The position numbers and the translations under genes were made by a program. A DNA stretch of 64,000 nt from Ignavibacteria bacterium (GTDB lineage Bacteria; Bacteroidota; Ignavibacteria; Ch128b): contig JABLYA010000001.1 in NCBI GenBank assembly GCA_013177855.1, positions 310,001 through 374,000 on the forward strand, given 5' to 3'. The stretch's first letter is position 1, and every line of letters starts with the position of its first letter. A model generated the notes under the pieces. That model was not told where the DNA came from and searched no databases. It saw only the letters and a program-made list of their open reading frames with translations. Below are positions 3,945 through 16,765 of this stretch, piece after piece.

Positions 3945-4512
3945 CGGTATATCCTGCGATTATGAAATTCTTTTAATCTATCGAATACTTTATTGGTTAT
4001 TCCACTAATAGTTGATAAACTCATCATGGGTTCATTAAAGAAATATTTAACTATTCTTTTTATATCTCTGTAACTTTCACCTTGTGTGAAGACTTTTGTT
4101 ATAAAGTCATTTACATCACTAAGGCGTCTTTCCCATTTATTAAAAATATTATTTTGATATACCATATATCTTAATCTCGGAACTCGAATATTTTCAATTA
4201 GTCCGAACTTTGTAATTAGATGTCTTGTGTAATAACCATTACGGTACCAATTCCTTTTTATCAAAGCTTTACTCCTCTCATATTCAACTTTTGCTTCAAG
4301 TAAAGTTTCAATTAAATATTTCAGAAATCTTAATACAATTGAATTAATAAAATAAACTAGATTTTTGTTTCCTTTGAAATATTCAATATTTTCGCTTAGG
4401 TCTTTATTGAATGTTATTTTCATGGGCATTTATCCTCCATTTTTTTTCAAATTTAGTGAGGGTAAATACCTCTTTCATTTTTATCCTTTTAAACAATTTT
4501 TAAACGCTATTC
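3945..4512 (-). mobile_element. IS256-family element, left-end fragment with truncated transposase
   Basis: The minus strand encodes the N-terminal 160 or so residues of an IS256-type (Mutator/MULE) transposase starting at 4429. Features are MPMKITFNKDLSENIEYF, RNWYRNGYYTRHLITKFG and the helix-rich segment ending near residue 160. A complete family member has about 400 residues, so the DDE core is missing. Upstream of the start is the element's terminal inverted repeat (AATAGCGTTTAAAAATTG at 4512 going down), the same end seen at 46266, 51812 and 56108. The 3' side breaks into hairpin block 1 near 3945, so the last ten codons read repeat DNA. The left end lies inside a REP-associated transposase gene, showing insertion into it. 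Not functional. Confidence 0.8.
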
Positions 4513-4840
4513 TTTATTTATTAAAATACTCTTATATCTGCCCTAATACAGATGTCCTGTCTTATCATACCTTCGTTTGTAATAGCTCGTATATGTGATA
4601 TTAAAATGCCTCATGAATTCCCCAAGATTACCCTGAGGTGTCTCAATAAGCAGATGGAAGTGGCTCTTCATCAATATACAGCTGAATACTTTGATATTAT
4701 AAATTTTCGCTGACTGGCTTAATATCTTACAAAATGTTTTTCTGTCTGTATCATAATCAAATATCCCTTTCCTTTCATTGCCACGACAGGTAAATGAGAT
4801 AAACTGCTCCAGTATAATGTATCCTTAATGGCCTCGCCAT
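4513..4840 (-). pseudogene. REP-associated tyrosine transposase (IS200-like, Y1/HUH), frameshifted and truncated
   Basis: From the ATG at 4840 the minus strand reads MARPLRIHYTGAVYLI, the classic start of Y1-type REP-associated transposases. One extra T near 4793-4800 then shifts the frame. In the next frame the protein goes on with CRGNERKGIFDYDTDRKTF, ILMKSHFHLLIETPQGNLG (the HUH motif is HFH) and EFMRHFNITYTSYYKRRYD. It reaches GHL, then an in-frame TAG, GRYKSILINK, and the IS256 end at about 4512. The C-terminal half with the catalytic tyrosine region is gone. It sits directly downstream of the kinase-phosphatase operon and marks the left boundary of that island. Identification is firm; the gene is dead. 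Confidence 0.85.
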
Positions 4841-4869
4841 AGGTTTTTATACCATTTTTACTCTCTTTT

Positions 4870-4901: not shown

Positions 4902-5141
4902 TCATATCATCCATTTTCGCAAGAACTGTAGCAATTTGCGAGTTACTGTCAACGGAGCGAACAGGAGCCTCACGATGAAACGAACCAGATCCGCTGCCAG
5001 GCTTCCAATCATCGCATCCGCCACTCTTGTTCCAATGAACAGCGCCGTAAAACCTTGCAGAAAAATCAAGGCTAAGAGAGCCATAAATAATAGTCGTCCC
5101 CATGAAGGAAGAAAAGGAGCGAGCAGAGTGAACAGGAACAT
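4902..5141 (-). CDS. Small hydrophobic protein, operon tail
   Basis: A 79-residue frame, very hydrophobic in its first 45 residues (MFLFTLLAPFLPSWGRLLF, then LLALIFLQGFTALFIG) and with a basic amphipathic tail (RFIVRLLFAPLTVTRKLLQF). It would form two membrane helices with a cytoplasmic cationic end. It lies 22 bases past the stop of the 30-residue ORF at 5164-5256 and in the same direction as the operon. I recognise no family. No clear ribosome binding site precedes the ATG, and a stop lies a few codons upstream in frame, so it could be the second half of a frameshifted membrane protein that begins at 5256. Base composition matches the island rather than the host. Confidence 0.4.
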   Translation of the reverse strand: MFLFTLLAPFLPSWGRLLFMALLALIFLQGFTALFIGTRVADAMIGSLAADLVRFIVRLLFAPLTVTRKLLQFLRKWMI

Positions 5142-5163: not shown

Positions 5164-5256
5164 TCAGACTCTGCTGCCTAACATATAAAGTAACACAACA
5201 AAAAGCCAACCAATCAGAACGGCAAACTCGTATGGTACGATATCCGGGAACTCCAT
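5164..5256 (-). CDS. 30-residue single-span membrane peptide
   Basis: An ORF below the usual size limit: MEFPDIVPYEFAVLIGWLFV and ten more residues, ending SRV. It starts two bases after the PP2C stop codon, with GGAGGGATAGCT immediately upstream giving a good ribosome binding site about seven bases before the ATG. Residues 10-27 form one hydrophobic helix with acidic residues on the N-terminal side. The spacing and the ribosome binding site argue for translation. It may be a membrane anchor or regulator in the phospho-signalling operon, or the first half of a frameshifted protein continued by the 79-residue frame downstream. No family recognised. Confidence 0.45.
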   Translation of the reverse strand: MEFPDIVPYEFAVLIGWLFVVLLYMLGSRV

Positions 5257-5258
5257 AG

Positions 5259-6026
5259 CTATCCCTCCATCTCAGATCCGCTATGCTTATTCATTGTTCT
5301 GCAAATGTGGATAACAATAGCCGATACATTATCTTGTCCACCTCGTTTCAAGGCTGACACTACCAGCTCTTTTGCAGGGTCCTGTGCAGTATTTAGAATT
5401 GCTTCAATTTCATCGTCTGTTATCATATCCGTTAATCCATCACTGCATAAGAGTAACACGTCGCTATCTAATAATTTGAGGTGTGCACAGTCCACGAAAA
5501 CTGTCTTCCCCCCACCAAAGGAATTTAAAAGCATATGCGATGGAACACCTGTGACTGCCTTTACCGAGTGATCCTGCGATATTTGAACGAGACATCCGTC
5601 TCGCAGCCGATATAGCCGGCTATCTCCTGCATTGAAATAGTAAGCAAGTCCGCCATAAAGCAACAGAGCCACCAACGTCGTTCCCATCCCTGCCAAGTCG
5701 GGATTACGCTGTGATTCTTCTAAAACCTGTGCATGAACCTTCTGTGCCCATGAGCGAATCTGCTCTAATAATGTGGATTCTGAAAGTCCTGAAGGAACAC
5801 TATGAACTTCCCGGGCCATCAATTTTAGAACCATCTCTGCTGCTACCTCTCCGGCATTATATCCTCCCATACCATCCGCCAGAGCAATGAGATAGCAGGC
5901 ATCCCCATCCAGTAGAATCGACAGATCCTTCCGTCCCTCTGCTAGGATTTCCTCCCCAAGCAGAATCCTATCCTCATTCCTTTCCCTCCGGCCGGTATTG
6001 GTTAAAGCCGTAATGCGCAGTTCCAT
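5259..6026 (-). CDS. PP2C-family (PPM) protein serine/threonine phosphatase
   Basis: A 255-residue, single-domain PPM phosphatase, the usual length for bacterial Stp/PrpC enzymes, that removes phosphate from Ser/Thr residues with two metal ions. Metal-site motifs are complete: RNEDR (Asp19), ALADGMGGY (Asp51 and Gly52), GMGTTL at 113-118, NAGDSRLYR at 132-140, CSDGLTD (Asp196) and GGQDNVSAIV (Asp232). There are no membrane segments, so it is cytoplasmic. It lies four bases after the FHA gene and two genes past the AAA+ ATPase in one minus-strand operon that starts with a Ser/Thr kinase; the expected job is to reverse that kinase's action. Codon use is G+C-rich compared with flanking host genes. 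Confidence 0.93.
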   Translation of the reverse strand: MELRITALTNTGRRERNEDRILLGEEILAEGRKDLSILLDGDACYLIALADGMGGYNAGEVAAEMVLKLMAREVHSVPSGLSESTLLEQIRSWAQKVHAQVLEESQRNPDLAGMGTTLVALLLYGGLAYYFNAGDSRLYRLRDGCLVQISQDHSVKAVTGVPSHMLLNSFGGGKTVFVDCAHLKLLDSDVLLLCSDGLTDMITDDEIEAILNTAQDPAKELVVSALKRGGQDNVSAIVIHICRTMNKHSGSEMEG

Positions 6027-6030
6027 GATT

Positions 6031-6618
6031 TCACACCCGCTCAGTCTTGTCTTGCTTGTGATCTTTTATTTCAATGTAGAACTCAATGTTGCCGATTACA
6101 AGAAAGGATTTATCCTTCAACACCTGGGGTTTGTGTGGCTCAAGCACCTGATTATTATATTTGGTTCCGTTTGTTGAACCGAGATCTGTTACCATCCAAC
6201 CCACCTGAGGGTCGAAGGTGAACTTGCAATGTTGACGGGATATTTTCTTAAAGGGTGAAAACACATCCGCAAAACGCCCTTCCGTTCTCCCGATCACATC
6301 GCCTTTTTGGATGACTATGTCAAGGTTAAGATTTCGATTAATGAGATGAAGCCCGACGGTTGGTGAATCCACCTGAAGGATTGGTCCTTTCGCCTGTGTT
6401 GTTCGAATGCTTGCCTGCTCAGGGGGAGGTACCGATGCAACAGGAGCGCCGTCCTTAAACAGGTTTGAAGCCTTAACAAGTTCTTTGCTATCAAAAGTAC
6501 AAAATCGGCCCCGGCCGGGTCTGCGACACTGAGGGCAGAACTGCAACTCCTGTCCGCACTGGTCACAGAACCAGGAGTCGTCATCAATTTTTGACTTACA
6601 GTTGGGGCAAATCAGCAT
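6031..6618 (-). CDS. Zinc-ribbon plus FHA domain protein (phosphothreonine reader)
   Basis: About 195 residues. The N-terminal 40 residues carry three CxxC pairs and a further Cys (CPNC, CDQC, CPQC and a C near residue 44 of the longer form), giving one and a half zinc ribbons. A Pro/Ser-rich linker follows. The C-terminal domain from about 95 to 190 is a forkhead-associated domain with its diagnostic residues in place: GR at 114-115, SRQH at 131-134 and GSTNGT at 151-156. FHA domains bind phosphothreonine peptides, so this protein should recognise targets of the operon's kinase. The ATG at 6618 is preceded by GGTGG; a GTG at 6630 is an alternative start, to which the residue numbers refer. 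It lies between the CFI-box gene (17 bases) and PP2C (4 bases). Confidence 0.9.
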   Translation of the reverse strand: MLICPNCKSKIDDDSWFCDQCGQELQFCPQCRRPGRGRFCTFDSKELVKASNLFKDGAPVASVPPPEQASIRTTQAKGPILQVDSPTVGLHLINRNLNLDIVIQKGDVIGRTEGRFADVFSPFKKISRQHCKFTFDPQVGWMVTDLGSTNGTKYNNQVLEPHKPQVLKDKSFLVIGNIEFYIEIKDHKQDKTERV

Positions 6619-6635
6619 GTGGTTTTCCACCCGTT

Positions 6636-7259
6636 TTACTCAAGGTATCTACGTTTCATGTTTGTAATAATCATAAAACAGTTGGCAAAAGCTTCTTCAT
6701 ATTTCCTTGCGCTGATAAGTTCAACCGTCTTTAATACCAGTTGCTTGTAGAGTTGTGCGTAAATCTCGTGCGCGTTTGCTTCTCCCTCAATGGCTTTCAC
6801 AATACGAGGCGCGATAGAGTAATATTCCAGGATGAGAGCGTCCCCATCAGAGAGGTTTCGCACATAAGTATCCCGGAAAGCCCGTAACACTTTCAGTTCA
6901 ATGCAATCATCAGGCAGGTGCATTGCTTTAGCGCATGCAGTTGCGATGAGACAGGGGCCATCTTTTACAACCCTTCCAGACTCTTTTTCAACACGGACGC
7001 CCGTGTCATGGTCGGTGAACCAGCCCATTTTCTTTATCTTCCCAGTTTCCTTGTCAATCCGGTATCCTGTATACGACTCGGTAAACCAGCCCACTTTCTT
7101 TATCTCCCCAGTATCCTTGTCAATCCGGTATCCTGTATACGATTCGGTGAACCATCCAACTTTCTTTATCTCCCCAGTCACTGGATCGATACGGTAGGAA
7201 CCATCCGTGTCCTCAATACCCATTTTTCTTAAGAGTTCTTTCAATTCTTTGTCATCCAT
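6636..7259 (-). CDS. CFI-box protein with 21-residue tandem repeats
   Basis: A 207-residue protein in three parts. Residues 1-20 are an acidic/basic helix. Residues 22-100 hold four tandem copies of a 21-residue unit, best copies GYRIDKDTGEIKKVGWFTES, three of them nearly identical and the last degenerate (GVRVEKESGRVVKDG). The C-terminal part starts CLIATACA at 103-110 followed by LPDDCIELKVLRAFRDTYV, the CFI-box type C-terminal domain known from predicted bacterial proteins; it is mostly helical and has no clear enzyme motif. There is no signal peptide or membrane helix. GGAAGGTGG lies just before the ATG. The repeat unit contains Ser, Thr and Tyr at fixed places (GWFTESYTG), which makes it a possible multi-site substrate for the kinase; that is my inference. 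Confidence 0.75.
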   Translation of the reverse strand: MDDKELKELLRKMGIEDTDGSYRIDPVTGEIKKVGWFTESYTGYRIDKDTGEIKKVGWFTESYTGYRIDKETGKIKKMGWFTDHDTGVRVEKESGRVVKDGPCLIATACAKAMHLPDDCIELKVLRAFRDTYVRNLSDGDALILEYYSIAPRIVKAIEGEANAHEIYAQLYKQLVLKTVELISARKYEEAFANCFMIITNMKRRYLE

Positions 7260-7493
7260 TTTACTGCCACCTTCCTAGATTATAACTTTCATAACCATTT
7301 TATCTTCTTAATTACCTATCTGCTGCCGGCATATACAAGCACGTAACTGGTTCTTGATCAAGATGCGCATAATCTCGTTCATCCGTGTATATTTATTTGG
7401 AGAAACCGCCGGCCAAAAAGCCGGGGAAGAAAAGGCAAACCCGCCGACTTCCAAGAAGTCTGCCGTCGCTCCTTCTAAGAACTCTGGTGCTAA

Positions 7494-9968
7494 TCATTTT
7501 GCCACCTCCTCTATATCGTCCACAGTGATTGTAATGAGGTCTTCTTGTTGGGTAGTACCTTCGGCCAGCAGACGCTGGATTCTTTCCGCTTGACACACAA
7601 GCACCTGCTCAAAGATGTTCCTGACTGTTCTACCGTTGGCGAAATTCTTGTCCCGACGGCGGTAAAGATCCTCCATAAGCGTAAGAACCTTCTCTTCTGC
7701 ATCAGGTCCCAAGCGCATGGCCTTTGCCGACACCATCGAAATAAATATCGCTTTCAATTCTTCGGGCATATAGTCCTCAAAGTCGACGTAGCGGGTAAAG
7801 CGTGAGGCCAGTCCCGGGTTAGTGTCCAAAAACCTCTGCATTTCATTGGGGTAGCCCGCCACAATAACCCCAAACTTGCCCCTATCGTCTTCCATACGCT
7901 TGAGAAGCGTATCAATTGCTTCACGGCCAAAAGAGTCGTATGCCAGGGTATAGGCTTCGTCAATAAACAGGATTCCTCCCATAGCCCTGTTGATAACAGC
8001 ATTTGTCTTGGGTGCCGTCTGCCCCACATACTCTGCTACGAGGTCTTTCCGGTCGACCTCCACGATGTGCCCTCGCCGCAGAAGTCCAAGAGCCTGGAAA
8101 ATCTCCCCCAGAATACGAGCTACCGTCGTCTTACCGGTGCCCGGATTCCCACGAAATACAAAATGTAAATTCAAAGGCGTCTGCCCAACTCCTGTCGCTG
8201 CCCGTACTCGCTCCACCTCCAGGTAAGCCGCCAGTTTCCTTAACTCTTCTTTGATCCGTTGTAAACCAACCAATCCATCGAGCTTTGCCAGAACCTCCTG
8301 CAAGGAAAGACGTCTCTCCTCGCCGTGATAAGCTTTTCGGACATCATCAGGCAAAATCAACGACCATTCCTCTGGATCCTCTGGAGGCTCTGCCGTAACT
8401 CGCCTGCTTTGGACTTTGATACATTCCTCAACAAAATTTCTGACCTCTCGAGCGTTGGCGAAATTCCTATCGCGTCTCTCCCACATCTCCCATAAAACTC
8501 TCTTGGCTTCCTCGTCCGCACATTGTCCCAGTTTGTATCCGTAACCCCTCACCATACCTTCAAAAATCAAGAAAAGCTCCTCTGGCTTATAATCAGGTAG
8601 GTGGAAAAACCGTGTGAACCGAGACCGAAGTCCAGGATTTGAGTCCAGAAATCTCTGCATTTCCTGCTGATAACCTGCTGCAATCACAACCAATCTCCCC
8701 CGGTCATCCTCCATTCGTTTAAGGAGTGTATCAATTGCTTCCTGCCCAAATGTATCATTATCCCCCTGCTTCATGGTATAGGCTTCATCAATGAAGAGGA
8801 CACCCCCTAAAGCCTCATCTATCTTCGCGTTTGTCAAGGGTGCCGTTTGTCCCACATACCCAGCTACAAGGTTCTTACGATCAACTTCCACCACATGTCC
8901 TCGGTCCAATAAACCTATGGCTGCCAGGACCTCACCTAACTTTCTTGCGATCGTAGTCTTGCCCGTGCCAGGATTCCCGGTAAGCACCATATGAAGATTA
9001 GGAAGGAACGGGCGACCTGACAGATCCGCACGCTTCTTCTGGACTTCGAGCATTTTGATCAAATCGCCAATTTCTTTCTTGACCTCATCCATCCCTACAA
9101 GCTCGTTCAGTTCACGCATAATCTCCTCAGCCGGCTTCACCTCTGTTACTGGCCCCTTTATATCCTCTGGAAAGATAAGTCCATCGTCCCCCTTGCGGAG
9201 TAGATATCTTTTTCTGATGCCGTCTGCCTCGCTCTGGGCCACATGTCCATTCCCATAGGACTCATCTGCGTGTCGGTAGAGCCACAGGAAACGCTTTCTT
9301 AGCATTTCACGAGCCTGGTCTGTAAGATACAATCCCCAGGCGTTCAACTTCTTCTCAGCAATGGTCAACAATTGATCATGATTCAGTCTCGTGAGCCTCA
9401 GGGTATAAGCGAAAAGCCCCTTAACATTCGGGTTGTTCTTCAAGTACTCCTCAAAGCCCTTGTACAAACCTGCCAGAATTACGATGGGGTCGTCTAACGA
9501 CTTCTTTATCTCCACAAGCAGTTTGTCGAGGGGATCTACAGTGCTGGAGTAACCTGCGGGTACGAGCTTTTGCACATCATTGATAAAGAGCAAATTACCT
9601 TTTGCCTTTTGAAAGTTCTGCGCTAAGTCCTTATTAAATTGCTGATAATCTGCAGCCTCAACGGTCACCGCATCCTTGATAAGACCGCAGCGTATGAAGG
9701 TTGCAGTCAAGAAGTCAACAATTGTGTTCTTACCTGTTCCCGCCTCCCCTATGATGATAGTATTGAAGTTAGGCCGCCCCACCGATTGCCCTTGTTGTCT
9801 TTCTGCAAGTTGCACAATCTCCAAGAGCTCCGCTTTTACCTGCTCCGAGACGACGAGATCGTCAATAGCTAGACTTGTTGTGAGGTTCGCAAGGCGTTCC
9901 CCACAGCGCTTGCAGTACTTTGCGCTATCCCGGTTGTTGGTAGCGCACTTCAAGCACGTGTTGGACAT
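7494..9968 (-). CDS. Zinc-ribbon, triple AAA+ ATPase (CbxX/CfqX-SpoVK type)
   Basis: An 824-residue protein. Residues 5-22 form one zinc ribbon (CLKC, CKRC). Three AAA+ modules follow. Module 1 has Walker A GEAGTGKN (74-81) but a weakened Walker B, LLFIND, where DE is expected, so it may bind rather than hydrolyse ATP. Modules 2 and 3 are close relatives of CbxX/CfqX and SpoVK ATPases: Walker [10 protein letters not shown] at 331 and 607, Walker B LFIDEAYT at 391 and 667, VGQTAPKTN pore-side segments, and SRFTR arginine-finger regions. The family includes Rubisco activase CbbX and EccA of ESX secretion, which remodel protein complexes. AAGGAGG precedes the ATG. A 234-base gap with no clear gene separates it from the CFI-box gene; a CCGGC/GCCGG hairpin lies there at 7409-7424. 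Confidence 0.9.
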
Positions 9969-10050
9969 GCCAACAATGCCTCCTTCTACAATATGCTAAA
10001 ACTCATCCCGGGATGACCTTTTAACTACCAGGCCACAAGGTCTCTCAAGC

Positions 10051-10320
10051 TTATGCGCTGGCTTGCCGACGAAAGACCAGCATGTTATAAGTATAGGCAC
10101 TTTCCCGTCGTCCTAGTAATGAACCAAGACAACCGGGTCGTTCCACAATCGTGCACTCGTCTGCACGATAAAATTCCCAACCCTGTTGAGCCATATCATT
10201 GATGATCTTCTCCACGTAGCCTGCGGTTATGTCCTCCGGTAACCTAGCTTCGAAAAGCTTTCGCATAATTGTAACATTGCGTGGGAGAGGAATAACCTTG
10301 TAAACCCACTGATTAGCCAT
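10051..10320 (-). CDS. Small DUF4177-like protein
   Basis: An 89-residue cytoplasmic protein. I chose the ATG at 10320 because AGGAGGAA stands eight bases upstream and the first gene of the pair ends only four bases earlier; a longer frame to 10374 would overlap that gene. The sequence begins MANQWVYKVIPLP and contains AGYVEKIINDMAQQGWEFYR, the pattern (Y-K-V, then LN..G.eGWe) of the DUF4177 family of small alpha-beta proteins. Its function is unknown. The second half, RPGCLGSLLGRRESAYTYNM, could bind a ligand or partner, but nothing catalytic is evident. It belongs to the kinase-AAA+ operon. Confidence 0.7.
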   Translation of the reverse strand: MANQWVYKVIPLPRNVTIMRKLFEARLPEDITAGYVEKIINDMAQQGWEFYRADECTIVERPGCLGSLLGRRESAYTYNMLVFRRQASA

Positions 10321-10324
10321 TTCT

Positions 10325-11581
10325 TCATTCCTCCTGTTTGGTTTTAGATGTTTTCGTGACAAGAATTGCCGCAACCACTATTTCACCAATTCTCATCCTC
10401 CGCATCGCTCGATAGTATTCCTCGATCCTATCGAGAGACAACTGTCTAGCACTTGCCTCTTCCGACGTTAACCCAGCAGCCTCGAGTAATTTATTTCTAT
10501 AAGTCCTCCAATAGTACACCGTTACACCGGCTCCAATCAAAGATAAAACCGGAGCAGAGTAAATAACTAAATATATAATCAAAACGCTTAATAAAAAACC
10601 AAAAATTGCACCTAACCACCCTGCTAATTCTACTGCTAATTCTATTACCTTTGGCATCATTATCAATATCCATGGCAACTCTATCAAAACAACAACAAAA
10701 AAAGCCTCCGGATGTTTGTCGAACCCAGACTGCTCAGGCCACCCGTAAATTTTAGCCATGATCGAAACAAAAATAAAATAAATAGTAAAAGCAAAGCTCA
10801 ACATCGATTTATTTCGCAATTCTTTATTCTGTTTCTTTACTTCTTTACGCTTTTCTTTAATCATCTGATCGTATGCCTTCTCGACCTCCGCTCTTTTCTG
10901 CTCCCGTTCTTGATCTATCTGTTGCTCCACTTCAAGAGCCTTAGACCTAATTGCTTTTTCTTCCTCTGCCACCTTCTCCATCCACGGACCACCATTCTCT
11001 ACCGACCGAACTATGGCGAGAACCCCTTGATAAAGTTCTCCAAATTCTGCAACCCCGTCATTACTTGCGACCAACCGGGCTAAGGGAACGAAGGTCGTCG
11101 AAGGGATGGTAGACATCACGCGCTGCCACATCTGACTGTGTTTATCGTAGGTAGCCCTAAGAACCCTCAGAAATTCCCGCAAATAGCCAATGACGGCATC
11201 GACGTTTCCGCTTCCTTCAATACGCTTAGCATATTCTGTAAGCATCAACGCCACCTGTTCTGCAAATCCTGCCATGAAGCTCTGATCCTCCCATAATTTC
11301 TTTGTGTCTACTATCGTCAGTATGCGCTCCAGAGATGCAAACGGGTCTAATCTAATGTCATCAAAGTTGTGGAGCACACCTGTTGCCAAAGCCAACACGG
11401 CTTCACTGTTCGTGCCCTGCCCCTCCGCTACTTCTAACAGCCGCTCATTCAAAGAGGTGTCCGCATAATAGCGGAGCCAGTAATTTAGCTCTTTTACGTC
11501 CTGCTGCAAAAGCCTATGGGCGTTTTCACGAAGCAGCTGCTCTAAATCGCCAGCATCCTTGAGGATTAGGTACTCCGCCAT
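10325..11581 (-). CDS. Coiled-coil membrane protein of the kinase operon
   Basis: A 418-residue protein of no family known to me. Residues 1-205 are helical and soluble, beginning MAEYLILKDAGDLEQLLREN. Residues about 205-260 form a strongly charged coiled coil (VEQQIDQEREQKRAEVEKAY, then KRKEVKKQNKELRNKS). Three or four membrane helices follow between about 262 and 365 (FAFTIYFIFVSIMA, AFFVVVLIELPWILIMM, IFGFLLSVLIIYLVIYSA, VLSLIGAGVTVYYW). A basic, cytoplasmic C-terminal tail closes it. It starts inside the end of the kinase gene (16-base overlap) with GGGAGG upstream, so the two are translationally coupled. It is probably the membrane component through which the kinase, AAA+ ATPase and FHA protein are gathered; that is inference from context. 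Confidence 0.8.
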   Translation of the reverse strand: MAEYLILKDAGDLEQLLRENAHRLLQQDVKELNYWLRYYADTSLNERLLEVAEGQGTNSEAVLALATGVLHNFDDIRLDPFASLERILTIVDTKKLWEDQSFMAGFAEQVALMLTEYAKRIEGSGNVDAVIGYLREFLRVLRATYDKHSQMWQRVMSTIPSTTFVPLARLVASNDGVAEFGELYQGVLAIVRSVENGGPWMEKVAEEEKAIRSKALEVEQQIDQEREQKRAEVEKAYDQMIKEKRKEVKKQNKELRNKSMLSFAFTIYFIFVSIMAKIYGWPEQSGFDKHPEAFFVVVLIELPWILIMMPKVIELAVELAGWLGAIFGFLLSVLIIYLVIYSAPVLSLIGAGVTVYYWRTYRNKLLEAAGLTSEEASARQLSLDRIEEYYRAMRRMRIGEIVVAAILVTKTSKTKQEE

Positions 11582-13215
11582 AGAAATCCTCCCTTTATAG
11601 CATAACGGAATGTGGTGATATCAAAGCGTTTAAGCGAACGCCATTTTTCGATGCTATCCTTTAACTCAGGGAACTGCTGAAGCCACAGTGAGAGCTTAGA
11701 ATAAGGATCACGAAGGTCGTCCACCAGATGTTGCTTTACTGCCTCATCGACTTCCAAAAGCTCTTCTGGCCTTTGAAAGCGATACGAGCCTATTCTGAGT
11801 ATATCACCCCCTTCCAGAGAGAGGATCAGAGTATTGAGAGCCAATTTTGTTGAGTCCGGTACAGCAAAGAGCTTCCGGAACTTGTCAGCTTCTTGCTTAT
11901 ACCCTCTCGCTTCTAGGTAAAGGTACAGGGCGGCCGTCGGCTGCTTGAGCTCTTTCTTATAGTGGAGAAAATGTTCCTCTAAGTGGGATGCAATCTCTTC
12001 CGGCGTCCCATACTGACCGCCATCTACCCCTCGGAATGGGCGATTCGGGTCCAGGATATAAATAGCTTTGACCAACCCTGCCTCCTGATCACGCGGATAC
12101 TCCTCCTCTACGATGGTCTCTATAGCGGAATAAAGGAACTGGTTGACGGGTTCGAGCCATTTTGAAATGGCCTTCCTGTAAAGGTGACGTTTCCCAAGCT
12201 CGGGATCTCGTTCCATCAAATCAGCCAGGCTTGCGGGATCTATCGCTACAATCTCTTGTCCCCCTTTCATCGAGAAGACGAACGGTGGATACTCTTTATG
12301 GACTTCGGAGTAGACCGGAACCTCTTCGCCGCGAAGCCAGCGTTGAACATCATCATATCCCCAGCGGTGCGCCGGATTGACGGTGATGAGTCCTTTGATG
12401 AGCGTCTGAAACTCCCGCGGGAGGTCCTCAGGTATCTCCACCCGACCCTCCATTTTCATGCGCATAGTCCCATACTCACCTAACCCCTCAAACGGCTCAC
12501 GACCCGTCCATAGGTGGATGAGAGTTATGCCAAGGGCATAGTAGTCTACAGATCTGTCAACAACCGTCTTTCCTCGAATACTTTGAAACACCTCTGGTGG
12601 CGCATATACAAGGGTACGGGCCTGACCAGTCAGCTTCTTCGAAAAACCCTCCTCCAACACTGAAGAGATCCCGAAATCGCCCACGACGATATCCCGACGT
12701 TCACGATCCCTAAAAAAGATGTTTGACGGTTTAATATCCCGATGAATGACACCTCTTTCATGACAGAAATGGAGGGCATTGACGACCTCGCGCACAATTT
12801 CCCTCAGCCTCTGAGGATCCCGGATGGGAAGCACCTCAGAAAGAGTTCCACCGGCAGCGTATTCCATGACCTCATAGAACCGGCCCTGATACCATCCACA
12901 GTCAATCAGGGCAACGATATCCGGATGCCGAATCCCTTGAATATACTCGGCAATTTCGTGCTTCGGCTGAAATGCTGGATAATAAATCTTCAGGACAAAG
13001 CGATCGCCAGCATGTTCTACCAGGAAGGTTTCGGCCTCACCGGATGCAGCGAGCCTATCTATCAGCCTATAGCGCTTTCCCTTGAGTACCACTTCACTTT
13101 CCGCTAGCGTAACTCCAGAGGAAATAACACCGCCCGCTTCACGCTCTGTAGCCTCTTGCATCCCCGAAGAAATAATCCCTTCCTCTTCCGAATGGATCGT
13201 CTTTTCTTCACTCAT
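11566..13215 (-). CDS. Serine/threonine protein kinase with novel C-terminal region
   Basis: A 549-residue Hanks-type kinase. The first 45 residues are disordered and hold two copies of a GxISSG motif with nearby Thr. The kinase domain runs from about 48 to 310: VAIK-type lysine in FVLKIYY (Lys76), HRDIKPSN (catalytic Asp160), GDFG (180-182), APPE (205-208) and DYYALGITLIHLWTGREPF. All catalytic residues are present, so it should be active. The C-terminal 240 residues carry no PASTA repeats and no membrane helix; they are helical with words such as RAISKWLEPVN and PDSTKLALNT, and I know no match. GAGGAGGT lies before the ATG, which overlaps the zinc-ribbon gene by four bases. It is the writer of the operon's phospho-signalling set. 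Confidence 0.93.
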   Translation of the reverse strand: MSEEKTIHSEEEGIISSGMQEATEREAGGVISSGVTLAESEVVLKGKRYRLIDRLAASGEAETFLVEHAGDRFVLKIYYPAFQPKHEIAEYIQGIRHPDIVALIDCGWYQGRFYEVMEYAAGGTLSEVLPIRDPQRLREIVREVVNALHFCHERGVIHRDIKPSNIFFRDRERRDIVVGDFGISSVLEEGFSKKLTGQARTLVYAPPEVFQSIRGKTVVDRSVDYYALGITLIHLWTGREPFEGLGEYGTMRMKMEGRVEIPEDLPREFQTLIKGLITVNPAHRWGYDDVQRWLRGEEVPVYSEVHKEYPPFVFSMKGGQEIVAIDPASLADLMERDPELGKRHLYRKAISKWLEPVNQFLYSAIETIVEEEYPRDQEAGLVKAIYILDPNRPFRGVDGGQYGTPEEIASHLEEHFLHYKKELKQPTAALYLYLEARGYKQEADKFRKLFAVPDSTKLALNTLILSLEGGDILRIGSYRFQRPEELLEVDEAVKQHLVDDLRDPYSKLSLWLQQFPELKDSIEKWRSLKRFDITTFRYAIKGGFLWRST

Positions 13216-14096
13216 ATCTGAACCTCCTCAAGAGTAGATATTGTTTCGGTTTCAAAAATCCACTCCCCGCCTGGAGCTGGGTCCGCACAACCTTGCGGAC
13301 CCTCCGGATGCAAACAATCGTAGGCCTTACAAAGCCACCCAATTGGTTTTCTGGTAATCTTAATCGTCGGCAAAATCACCTTTAAAGCTCCAAAAAAACG
13401 TCTGGCCTCCTGGTTGTTCTTAAAGTTGCGTTGCTGAAGCTTCTCCAAAGCATCGGATTGGATCGATGGAGTTTGCTGGCTTTGTATCTCTTTGGCTTGG
13501 TCAATGAGCTTATCCGCCCGCCCCTTATGAAAAAGGGGCTCAGCGGACTTCTTCTGCTGCCATTTCTCAACCTTGTTCTGGTATTCTTTCATCTTTATTA
13601 ACTCTATCCTTTCCTCGGAAGGTCGGGAGAGTGTAGCTGTTTGCTCGGTTGGTACTAAAAGACCTTGCGCTTCGATTGTTCGCTTGAGATCCTCAATGGA
13701 TTGACGGGCCTGAGGTGTTAGCGGAATTCCACAATGCTTACAGAAATCAAAATAGCTCATGTTACCACATTGGGGACACGGTATGCCATCAGCGGGATTG
13801 CCACATTCCGCGCAAAACTTCGCCCCTTCCTCCAGAGGTGCATAGCAGAACTTGCACTGGCCTTCCAGAAGCCATGCCCCGCACGCTTCACAAATATCGG
13901 CACCCGGCAGAATTAGAGCATCACACTGCGGACACTTTCGCGCCGGCGAAAGGGCTACACCACAATTAGCGCAAAAGGATGACTCCTCTTCATTCTCCGT
14001 CCCACATTCTGAGCAAACAACTCTTGGTTCCTCCATCCGCTCGGAGGAGGTTACCAAATTTCCTTTGGCCTGCTTAGAAGACTTGGACTTTTCCAT
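13212..14096 (-). CDS. Four-zinc-ribbon protein, first gene of the kinase operon
   Basis: A 294-residue protein from the ATG at 14096, which has GAGGAGG seven bases upstream. Residues about 27-127 contain eight CxxC knuckles (CSEC, CANC, CPQC, CEAC, CKFC, CAEC, CPQC, CKHC), enough for four treble-clef zinc ribbons of the double-zinc-ribbon type. Residues 130-240 are helical and charged (SIEDLKRTIEAQGLLVPTEQ, MKEYQNKVEKWQQKKSAEPL). The last 60 residues contain KITRKPIGWLCKAYDCLHPE and are not recognised. No membrane segment is present. Such ribbon arrays usually act as protein or nucleic-acid docking modules. Its stop overlaps the kinase start by four bases. Function unknown. Confidence 0.8.
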   Translation of the reverse strand: MEKSKSSKQAKGNLVTSSERMEEPRVVCSECGTENEEESSFCANCGVALSPARKCPQCDALILPGADICEACGAWLLEGQCKFCYAPLEEGAKFCAECGNPADGIPCPQCGNMSYFDFCKHCGIPLTPQARQSIEDLKRTIEAQGLLVPTEQTATLSRPSEERIELIKMKEYQNKVEKWQQKKSAEPLFHKGRADKLIDQAKEIQSQQTPSIQSDALEKLQQRNFKNNQEARRFFGALKVILPTIKITRKPIGWLCKAYDCLHPEGPQGCADPAPGGEWIFETETISTLEEVQI

Positions 14097-14165: not shown

Positions 14166-15602
14166 TTAAACTGAATCATGCGTGAAAATCTCATATTTTA
14201 GCTTCTCTATTTGTTTAAGTGCATACCCTATTTTATCTTTATACCAAAAATTAGCTGGGAATTTTAATAGTGTCTCGTTATCAGTTCTTACCAATTCTCC
14301 AGGAACAAAAAGTAATCGTGTTCTTAGTGTCCTGAGCACCATGTTCTGGAACTCCTGTTGAATACAGAGATGCTTGAACCAATTTATAAAATTATAGGCA
14401 ACCAAAAGAAGATGAAAATATACCTCGTTAGTTGCAAAGTGTTTTGTCGGAATCTTCGCTAATGGATAATCTCCCCTTAGTTCTTTGATGATAAGCTCTA
14501 TTGCGACCCTTCCATCGTAAAACTTCCAAACATTCAGTGGCTTGAGATTTAGGTTTGTGACTATAACATGATAATTATATTTGCCCATTGTAAAATTAAT
14601 TAACTGGTCTAAATTCTCCTCTGCAATAGATCGCCTTATAACCACAAAATGATATTGCTTTTTCCATCCATTAAGTTGATACATGAACTCTGAAACCTTT
14701 AATCCAGATGTATATCTCCTAACAGACAGGGATGCAAGCCTTGTCTTTAAAGGTTTTATAATCTTTGCAACTATAGCAAATAGATACTTTTTTGATTCCA
14801 AATATTCTATAGTTTTGTGGTCGTAAAAACCTTTATCCGCTCTGATGATTTTTACTTTTACAGATGATGTAAGTTTTGCAAAACAGATCTCCAATAGCTC
14901 TAAAACTCCTGTAAAGCTATGAGCATCTCCTGGTCTTAATTCAACATACCAAAAATCTTTGGTTATACCATTGAAACAAAGCAGAGGATGATAAGAAGGT
15001 CTGCTTTTCTTTATATGATTGTATCCTTTTTTTGCAAACTCCAGTCTACCATAAAGGACAAGAACTGTAAAGTTTAAATCGAAATTAACCCTTATCAGTG
15101 AGTAGGGTTTTTGATTCATTATCATAAATATCTTGTCGTGGGGCTTTCTTAATTTGCTGAGTACTAGGGGAACTATACGCAAAAGGAAACGCCTTAATGT
15201 TGTAGGATTAGGATAAGCTGGCAATCCTGTGAGGTATTGGAATACCACATTTTGTTTAATGAGATGGAAAGTTTCTATTCTTCCAAGTCCGAGTATTATG
15301 GGATAAAGAAGGGCTAATAACTCCTCTGCTATGCTGTAGCGATTGTTCCTTTGAGGAAATCGAAAATAATGAGATAAAAAGAATAGAAGGTTAAGTTTCT
15401 GAATTAATTTTCGTAAAAGGTGTAGACCTCCAAAGTGTGATAAGTTCCTACCCGTAAACGATATTTGAAGATTTTTTGGACTGTATTTCATAAGCTCCAG
15501 AAACCTAATTAAAAAGTAGGTTTTTAGAATAACCCTTAAATAGTGTTCATTATACCAAAAAACTATATGTTTCGTGGCATTTTTTGGATTTTGGGTTATC
15601 AT
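14166..15602 (-). mobile_element. IS1380-type DDE transposase gene
   Basis: An intact 478-residue transposase. Features of the IS1380 group are the first acidic strand VNFDLNFTVLVLYG followed by KKGYNHIKKSRPSYHPLLCF, RADKGFYDHKTIEYLESKKY around the second Asp, and the YDGRVAIELIIKELRGD helix bearing the final Glu, followed by FHLLLVAYNFINWFKHL. The N-terminal part SFTGRNLSHFGGLHLLRKLI is also typical. It is read on the minus strand. Clear terminal inverted repeats could not be fixed by eye, so the element borders are not given. It is A+T-rich like the host and separates the G+C-rich kinase operon from a decayed restriction-modification locus, only 15 bases past the end of the methyltransferase pseudogene. 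It may still be active. Confidence 0.85.
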
Positions 15603-15617
15603 ATCCTAAGCAATAAC

Positions 15618-16551
15618 TCAAGTTTCAGGTTTAAAATTTGACAAAATCTCTAATAGTCCAAGATTTTGACAAAAATAAAATTTAAGAATGAATGTTTTAA
15701 TAACGACGTCAACATAATCTTTGTTTATGTTAATCATTACAAACTTAGGATTTAGTTGTTTAGCTATAAAACCAGTTGTTCCAGTTCCAGCCATAGAGTC
15801 GAAATAATATCTCCTTATTTCTTAAAACTTAAAATTACTAATTTTAATAATTCCTCGGCTTTTTGCGTTGAATGTATTTTTTCTCCCATTTCATATATTA
15901 ATCTTTCTTGTCCTAAACAAAGTGGTATTTGCCAAACATTTATTCCTAATTTACCACCATAAAAACTTCCCGCAATTTCTTTATTAATAGTATATTTTTA
16001 ACCTTATTTTCTTTTACTGCCCAAAGTAATGTTTTTATAACATTTGTGAACCTAACACCCAGTAATTTAGGCATTGGATTAGTTTTAAACCATATAACAT
16101 CATTCAAAATCCAAAATCTCAAATCTAATATTATTTTCCCAATTCTATAAATATTATGATAGGCCCATATTATTATCCAAATTGTAGTATTTGGTTTAAT
16201 TAATTTTTTAATTTCTGTCAAATAATTTTTCGTGAAATTATCTTGATCGTCTAAATACTTAAACATATACCATTGATCATTCATGCCATTCAAAACGCTT
16301 CCCGTCCATCTTAACAATTTCTTAGGTGGAAGCTGTAAAAAATACGGGGGGTCAATAAAAGCACGATCAACAAACTCAGACGACAATTTTTTCATTACCT
16401 TTAAATAATCACCAATAATTACTTTATCTAAAATTTTATCTAAAAAATAGTTGGTTTTTTGTTCCTCGACTTTTAAAGCAAAAGATGTCTGATTTTCTTT
16501 AATCACTGTTTCTTGAATATTTGAATTTAATTTTGTAATTCTATTAGTCAT
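15618..16551 (-). pseudogene. Beta-class DNA adenine/cytosine-N4 methyltransferase, multiply broken
   Basis: The first 195 codons are open from 16551 and include KVIIGDYLKVMKKL, FIDPPYFLQLPPKKLLRWTG (motif IV, DPPY) and FWILNDVIWFKTNPMPKLLG. Near 15965 the frame shifts and continues as EIAGSFYGGKLGINVWQIPL, then ERLIYEMGEKIHSTQKAEELL (motif X region). An in-frame TAA and a second shift follow near 15820. The last part reads FDSMAGTGTTGFIAKQLNPK (motif I) and DYVDVVIKTF. The order IV, target region, X, I is that of beta-class methyltransferases such as those of HinfI-type systems. All motifs can be recognised but the gene cannot make the protein. No restriction endonuclease partner remains in the window. 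Confidence 0.85.
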
Positions 16552-16555
16552 AACC

Positions 16556-16765
16556 TTATTTTATCAAATTATCAACGCTAATACCCAATGCTTTGGCGAT
16601 TTTTTTAACTGTCTCAATTCTTGGATTAGGTGTTGCCCCGAATTCAATCTTTGTAATTGTGTGTAAAGTAACGCCAGCAAGTTTTGATAACTTATCTTGT
16701 GAAATGCCTTTATTTTCTCTATACTTTTTAATGTTTTTAAAGATTATTGAAATTTTTTTTGACAT
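16556..16765 (-). CDS. Small XRE-type HTH regulator, probable restriction-modification controller
   Basis: A 69-residue protein made of one XRE/Cro-C1 helix-turn-helix domain: KISIIFKNIKKYRENKGISQ, DKLSKLAGVTLHTITKIEFG and NPRIETVKKIAKALGISVD. It ends four bases before the methyltransferase pseudogene starts, on the same strand. Size, fold and place match the C (controller) proteins of type II restriction-modification loci, which bind palindromes at their own promoter. A perfect 18-base palindrome begins two bases before its start codon, strengthening that view. It is intact while the methyltransferase is not, so it may now regulate only itself. Confidence 0.8.
   Translation of the reverse strand: MSKKISIIFKNIKKYRENKGISQDKLSKLAGVTLHTITKIEFGATPNPRIETVKKIAKALGISVDNLIK

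Follow-up and report, generated by a model that had tools for sequence, protein, structure and literature searches.

In a 64,000-nucleotide stretch of the genome of an Ignavibacteria bacterium (contig JABLYA010000001.1, positions 310,001 to 374,000 of the forward strand; hereafter, the window), a minus-strand operon carries five gene families, ZNR, KIN, AAA, FHA, and PP2C, which encode a zinc-ribbon protein, a Hanks-type Ser/Thr kinase, a zinc-ribbon AAA+ protein, a zinc-ribbon FHA protein, and a PP2C phosphatase. Judged from their recurrence across genomes, the conclusion that these families form a real module that behaves as a unit is well supported. We consider the chances about even that the window holds a horizontally acquired copy of this module and that the module would act as a phospho-switched, membrane-anchored AAA+ remodeling system. 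An earlier reading of the window (the original prediction) had likewise proposed a self-contained, phospho-controlled remodeling machine, although with eight genes.

When 84,980 species genomes were searched with the window's AAA protein, 80 loci were obtained, in which open reading frames (ORFs) matching the window's ZNR, kinase, FHA, and PP2C stand side by side. Since circularity of an AAA-based search was to be avoided, a second query consisted of the kinase stretch that follows the catalytic domain (the middle domain), which holds no AAA information. In the phylum to which the window genome belongs it matched 6 of 296 genomes; in that of locus L023, 1 of 147 (plus two contig-edge fragments); in that of a Treponema genome, 7 of 247 (some of these matches being weak); and within a single Prevotella genus, 58 of 150. 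All nine non-Prevotella loci inspected (L131-L134 and L157-L161) contained further module genes; eight carried all five and the ninth was interrupted by a contig end. Altogether, the complete set was present in 80 of 89 loci, on the same strand in every one and within a span of 7.9-12.1 kb, so the genes do co-occur in other genomes, and ZNR, taken singly, was found in 84. There were six gene orders, the commonest being ZNR-KIN-AAA-FHA-PP2C (73 loci). When neighboring genes of the 89 loci were clustered, only the five core families recurred across taxa, i.e., across Prevotella/Bacteroidales, Ignavibacteria, Spirochaetota, and one unplaced lineage; the other recurrent families were Prevotella flanks. 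In a tree of the kinases, L023 is the partner of the window, with support of 89/82, which is not decisive.

The Prevotella loci allow the module to be compared with its absence. Bearers have it flanked by an M13 peptidase gene on one side and metA on the other. Seven genomes of this genus without the module were examined, and in five of them (L174-L178) the two flanking genes directly adjoin each other, about 60-150 bp apart (for L174, the position of metA was taken from a separate search and not from the site reading itself). Of the two remaining module-free genomes, the first carries different genes in the gap and the second is rearranged. Therefore, the five genes are gained or lost together, and this en bloc presence or absence, with the recovery of the same families from two independent queries, bears out the claim of a self-contained unit. 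In two Prevotella loci, an SH3-like membrane protein is encoded 3' of metA and a U32 peptidase gene (L067, 17399-18373; L095, 17830-18876). The L095 protein ends in a zinc ribbon, and the module of spirochete locus L159 holds an SH3/zinc-ribbon membrane protein; such a protein is possibly a sixth, unlinked partner.

A patchy distribution and horizontal transfer beside an insertion sequence (IS) are also compatible with an anti-phage or conflict system, in which the kinase and phosphatase would set a threshold and the AAA+ protein would release or assemble an effector upon infection. There are NTP-dependent conflict systems that combine a kinase with PP2C and vWA components (PMC7159879), the kinase scores against PADLOC kinases (mad6, 1.3e-44; PD-T4-6 models), and a type IIG restriction gene lies downstream of the module in L023. 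However, the PADLOC matches are confined to the kinase domain and generic AAA domains, no effector (nuclease, protease, or pore) recurs among the neighbors, and the Prevotella modules, present in 58 of 150 genomes, occupy a single housekeeping site. A scan of ten flanking proteins from six loci gave matches for no more than two, the L023 restriction gene and a generic ABC-type ATPase, and a search of IMG/VR returned isolated AAA relatives and no module. We thus regard an anti-phage role as unlikely, and the module does not correspond to an anti-phage system described in PADLOC.

Evidence for phospho-switched remodeling begins with the kinase. In relatives it is a single protein of ~900-1100 aa, comprising an N-terminal tail, the catalytic domain, a repeated middle domain, a coiled coil, and usually 3-5 predicted transmembrane (TM) helices. 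The window's version is divided in two: KIN (11566-13215, minus strand; 549 aa; Pkinase, 2.8e-37) and MEM (10325-11581, minus strand; 418 aa), the latter having a coiled coil and 3 predicted TM helices according to hydropathy and alignment to relatives' kinases. The two ORFs overlap by 16 bases (11566-11581) in different frames. MEM aligns to the C-terminal half of the relatives' ~1000-aa kinase, so what had been taken for a separate coiled-coil membrane protein corresponds to part of the kinase. MEM has its own Shine-Dalgarno sequence (AAGGGAGG) and an ATG within the 3' end of KIN, its start reading AAGGGAGGATTTCTATG, and because of these signals translational coupling is favored over programmed frameshifting at the junction. 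The split itself may be a natural fission, or a one-base indel in nature or in the assembly. The frames had been described as intact, and they are, apart from this split of the kinase; the catalytic or ligand-binding motifs of the kinase (K, HRDxKPxN, and DFG), PP2C, and FHA are likewise preserved. Throughout the family (89 of 89), the glycine loop is replaced by a [S/T/A][G/S]E[A/G] motif. Two spirochete loci (L159 and L161) have two family kinases per module.

The middle domain matched no Pfam family. Its AlphaFold2 model is confident, with a mean predicted local distance difference test (pLDDT) score of 92.9, and in Foldseek it found nothing in the PDB better than E 1.1; the best VIA-align result (Z 4.5 over 69 residues) was uninformative. 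The confident model and the lack of a Foldseek match give weak evidence for a new fold. A sequence match to RxLR effectors (E 0.08) was taken as chance. The tails, in turn, are rich in TxR motifs. In the Prevotella set (72 kinases, 71 with the motif) there were 226, against a shuffle mean of 38.6, and in 17 other kinases there were 35, against 3.8. Per 100 aa, these values correspond to 3.4 and 2.4 in the tails vs. 0.11 and 0.21 in the remaining protein.

Threonine motifs resembling those of the kinase tail also occur in the FHA protein, either at its C-terminus or in a linker, in several lineages. Cognate tail/FHA pairs include DKTVRI/DKTVRI (L024), DATVRV/DATVRV (L131), TAGFD/TAAFD (L157), and GTVIIE/STVIVE (L161). 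The window's FHA protein (6031-6630, minus strand; FHA, 1.4e-14; DZR, 1.4e-6) has a double zinc ribbon, an FHA domain with intact GR, S, and N motifs, and the C-terminal sequence DKTERV, which is among the 8 of 90 entries (one a duplicate) that end in T-x-[RK]-[VIL]. PP2C (5259-6026, minus strand; PP2C_2, 2.3e-13) has intact metal-site motifs and scores 1.4e-47 against the Stp1 model, yet under the equivalog cutoff. ZNR (13212-14096, minus strand; DZR, 4.6e-17), whose ATG at 14096 is preceded by the Shine-Dalgarno sequence GAGGAGG, combines four zinc ribbons with a coiled coil. Its C-terminal W-C-H-C-GG-W domain is conserved, with an invariant W and GGxW, and Spirochaetota versions deviate there; its AlphaFold2 model (pLDDT 79) retrieved only generic zinc fingers in a fold search. 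Zinc ribbons are thus found on three of the five core proteins (ZNR, AAA, and FHA).

Among the nearest solved proteins to FHA is ArnA of the archaeon Sulfolobus (5a8i, E 1.5e-4), which has the same order of N-terminal zinc ribbon and FHA domain and acts in a phosphorylation-dependent complex (PMC6509490). This likeness, together with a Stp1-like PP2C and an FHA C-terminal Thr motif compatible with intramolecular binding, would suit a stress or nutrient signaling cassette of the ArnA/ArnB or OdhI/GarA kind, in which the kinase, FHA, and PP2C do the work and the AAA+ protein merely dissociates a phospho-complex. The similarity to ArnA is weak, however, and ArnA's partner is the vWA protein ArnB in a network that has neither AAA+ nor PP2C, whereas no vWA partner is encoded in the module or recurs beside it, nor does a metabolic enzyme or regulator. 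The kinase differs from that of the Stk1/PknB-Stp1 pair, as no PASTA repeats were matched on it and NF033483 scored 106 bits against a cutoff of 450. Moreover, a multi-ring AAA+ protein is conserved in every lineage, which suggests remodeling as the output. We therefore hold a pure signaling cassette to be improbable.

The AAA protein provides the remaining support for phospho-switched remodeling. AAA3 (7494-9968, minus strand; AAA, 2.7e-39; two AAA_lid_6 matches) consists of an N-terminal zinc ribbon and three AAA+ modules, as originally predicted for a triple AAA+ ATPase, but only modules 2 and 3 are intact and the first is degenerate; most relatives have three or four intact modules. In 81 AAA proteins the first-module Walker B reads DN instead of DE, i.e., Asn replaces the catalytic Glu; in the window, Walker A is GEAGTGKN and Walker B is FINDVQ. 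The sensor-1 GY signature that marks the SpoVK-CbbX-EccA clade (PMC10659427) is present as AGYQQEM at 431 (module 2) and AGYPNEM at 704 (module 3), while module 1 has AGLYKG. A further clade mark is an Asn located four positions ahead of the first arginine finger; the region concerned reads NPGLRSRF in module 2 and NPGLASRF in module 3. The nearest solved relatives of the intact modules are CbbX (3zuh, 3.4e-58) and EccA1 (8e-54). The protein also exceeded the curated cutoffs of TIGR02881 (592 bits/423), TIGR02880 (499/459), and TIGR03922 (483/467), these scores being sums over several modules. By the GY signature and the profile and structure matches, the intact modules belong to the SpoVK/CbbX/EccA clade. 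Its known members contain a single AAA module and are not partnered with a kinase; the protein encoded here starts with a zinc ribbon and strings several AAA modules together in one chain, the catalytic motifs of the first being degenerate. Plasmid matches to the AAA protein (L115-L118) proved to be stand-alone SpoVK/CbbX paralogs with no module around them and were rejected as carriers, as were multi-AAA proteins from sampled relatives within the window genome's class, which likewise stand alone. Stand-alone proteins of ~1050 aa from other genomes of this class (L004, L005, and L007) contain at least three CbxX-type AAA modules each and differ in their N-terminal domain, and one of them adjoins an ABC transporter gene.

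Kinases, PP2C phosphatases, and FHA proteins together regulate some type VI secretion systems (T6SS). The same trio in the module raises the possibility of a regulatory arm for a secretion or envelope apparatus encoded elsewhere, acting by T6SS-like PpkA/PppA/Fha logic or as an EccA-like secretion chaperone; EccA is the type VII secretion member of the clade, and three Spirochaetota copies of the module (L157, L158, and L160) lie near a divergent VirD4/TraG-like coupling ATPase. Nevertheless, the VipB sheath (PF05943) was found in 0 of 21 module genomes, with an E. coli control positive, and the Bacteroidota-type TssC (PF17541) in 2 of 21, on contigs other than that of the module kinase, the window's own genome being negative. 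The FHA protein is a zinc-ribbon-FHA and not TagH (TIGR03354, 20.8 bits against a cutoff of 120), the hosts come from several phyla, and no secretion genes recur among the neighbors. A link to T6SS is thus not supported, and we rate a secretion-related role in general as having little probability. The VirD4/TraG-type gene, for which PF02534 was tested in L157, is on the strand opposite to the module in L157 and L158.

The TerY-P cassette also joins a Ser/Thr kinase, PP2C, and zinc ribbons, and SpoVK-type AAA ATPases can sit near it, yet its required parts include a VWA protein and a kinase fused to a zinc ribbon (PMC11090510). No VWA match was obtained among the window's proteins and none recurred in the 89 loci, in agreement with the original prediction that secretion and VWA genes are missing. 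The module's zinc ribbons are on the separate ZNR, AAA, and FHA proteins and not on the kinase C-terminus, which is made up of the middle domain, coiled coil, and TM helices and in which profiles found no zinc ribbon. Further, FHA and a multi-module AAA protein are constant in the module, and its kinase is anchored in the membrane and has a middle domain of its own. The module is not a TerY-P cassette, and the possibility, foreseen at the outset, that the genes would prove to be a known T6SS or TerY-P module was not realized. A literature search returned no description of the five-gene set, only irrelevant papers or systems that are related but distinct, although an earlier drawing may exist in Figure 3A of PMC10659427, which depicts operons of the clade, one of them zinc-binding, and lies outside the part of that source covered.

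From the TxR enrichment of the kinase tails and the matching Thr motifs of FHA, we infer tail autophosphorylation, FHA docking, and reset by PP2C. The membrane kinase would phosphorylate its own tail and the FHA protein on Thr residues, and the FHA domain would bind these phosphothreonines to form a multivalent docking platform at the membrane; in an alternative off state, it would close on the FHA protein's own tail. The zinc ribbons of ZNR, FHA, and AAA might, as a guess, keep the assembly together. FHA docking would gate the CbbX/SpoVK-type chaperone. The first module of the chaperone would bind nucleotide or a partner but not hydrolyze, its intact rings would thread and remodel a single dedicated client, and PP2C would reset the switch. 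This output is proposed because those members of the SpoVK/CbbX/EccA clade that have been characterized serve dedicated targets as chaperones (PMC10659427). Somewhat less probable than even is the fuller proposal of a bacterial machine of a class not described before. It would be a mobile complex of five proteins running from a Thr-tailed membrane kinase, with a possibly new fold, through a zinc-ribbon FHA adaptor to a multi-ring CbbX-type chaperone with a non-hydrolyzing first module, and its task in Prevotella, Ignavibacteria, and spirochetes would be to remodel a dedicated client.

Several observations weigh against phospho-switched remodeling. Cognate kinase-tail and FHA Thr windows were more alike than non-cognate ones (permutation p = 0.003, 16 loci), but this was an exploratory test on related sequences. 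The C-terminal Thr motif occurs in only 8 FHA entries, and Prevotella FHA proteins are without it. FHA domains classically prefer I, L, V, or D at +3, while Pro is the commonest residue at this position in the Prevotella kinase-tail motif. Inactivity of the first AAA module is not universal, since Spirochaetota copies L157, L158, and L160 keep the Walker B Glu. In the window, the split kinase and an IS abutting the promoter region may cast doubt on the expression of this copy. Thus, the Thr-motif tails on kinase and FHA lend some substance to the phospho-controlled machine first proposed, but phosphorylation, FHA binding, and remodeling are all inferred.

The window locus itself has features that point to acquisition from elsewhere. 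The island has a G+C content of 45-50%; per kb the values are 42-52% over 5-14 kb vs. 27-36% in the surroundings, G+C at third codon positions is 0.42-0.54 in operon genes vs. 0.230 +/- 0.031 in 25 other window ORFs, and AAG accounts for 0.58 of Lys codons vs. 0.23 elsewhere in the window, which confirms the G+C-rich island of foreign composition claimed before. An IS1380-family transposase gene (14166-15602, minus strand; NF033539, 2.1e-63), single-copy in the genome, flanks the island on the right, directly upstream of the operon and outside the module. On the left are an IS256/Mutator-like fragment and, at the island edge (4440-4860, minus strand), a frame-broken RAYT/Y1-type transposase-like remnant (HFHLLIETPQGNLGEFMRHFNITYTSYYKRR), both identified by eye only. 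No terminal repeats were recognized at the island ends, and the AAA gene has one copy in the genome. At 15946-16765, between the IS1380 element and a tRNA-Ser gene, are a truncated DNA methyltransferase-like ORF and, next to it, a small helix-turn-helix regulator.

ORF coordinates agree with the eight minus-strand ORFs joined by overlaps or short gaps that had been predicted, and profiles agree with the families assigned to the kinase, AAA, FHA, PP2C, CFI-box, and DZR proteins; the DUF4177-like protein (10051-10374, minus strand) fell below the cutoff (PF13783, 20.8 bits against 25) and matched phrog_12383 (2.9e-16). The CFI-box protein (6636-7259, minus strand; CFI_box_CTERM NF041770, 2.5e-13) has N-terminal repeats (GYRIDKDTGEIKKVGWFTESYT), and at the 3' end of the operon a 79-aa protein with two predicted TM helices (4902-5141, minus strand) had no family match. 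The DUF4177-like and CFI-box proteins had no relative among ORFs of loci L023-L114, and neither these two nor the small two-TM ORF recurred in relatives' loci by neighbor clustering. On this basis they, with other small ORFs, are local accessories, and the system contracts from eight genes to five families. Other lineages have accessories of their own, namely a WG-repeat protein in L023, SUKH/SMI1 proteins in L132-L134, an ankyrin protein in L161, and an SH3 membrane protein in L159; these, like the CFI-box and DUF4177-like proteins of the window, may be clients, adaptors, or passengers. The SUKH/SMI1-KNR4-like proteins, from three genomes of the window genome's class, are encoded in or beside the module (L132, 10445-10963; L133, 4668-5198; L134, 7289-8080).

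If phospho-switched remodeling is correct, 58 of 150 sampled genomes of one Prevotella genus would carry a regulated AAA+ machine that is now annotated as five unconnected, generic proteins. Hanks-kinase signaling would be linked to the CbbX/SpoVK/EccA chaperone clade, and a kinase-associated domain, without a match in the PDB search, would be added to those already recognized. Finally, the occupied and empty M13 peptidase-metA sites of otherwise similar Prevotella would constitute a natural presence/absence experiment on the module.

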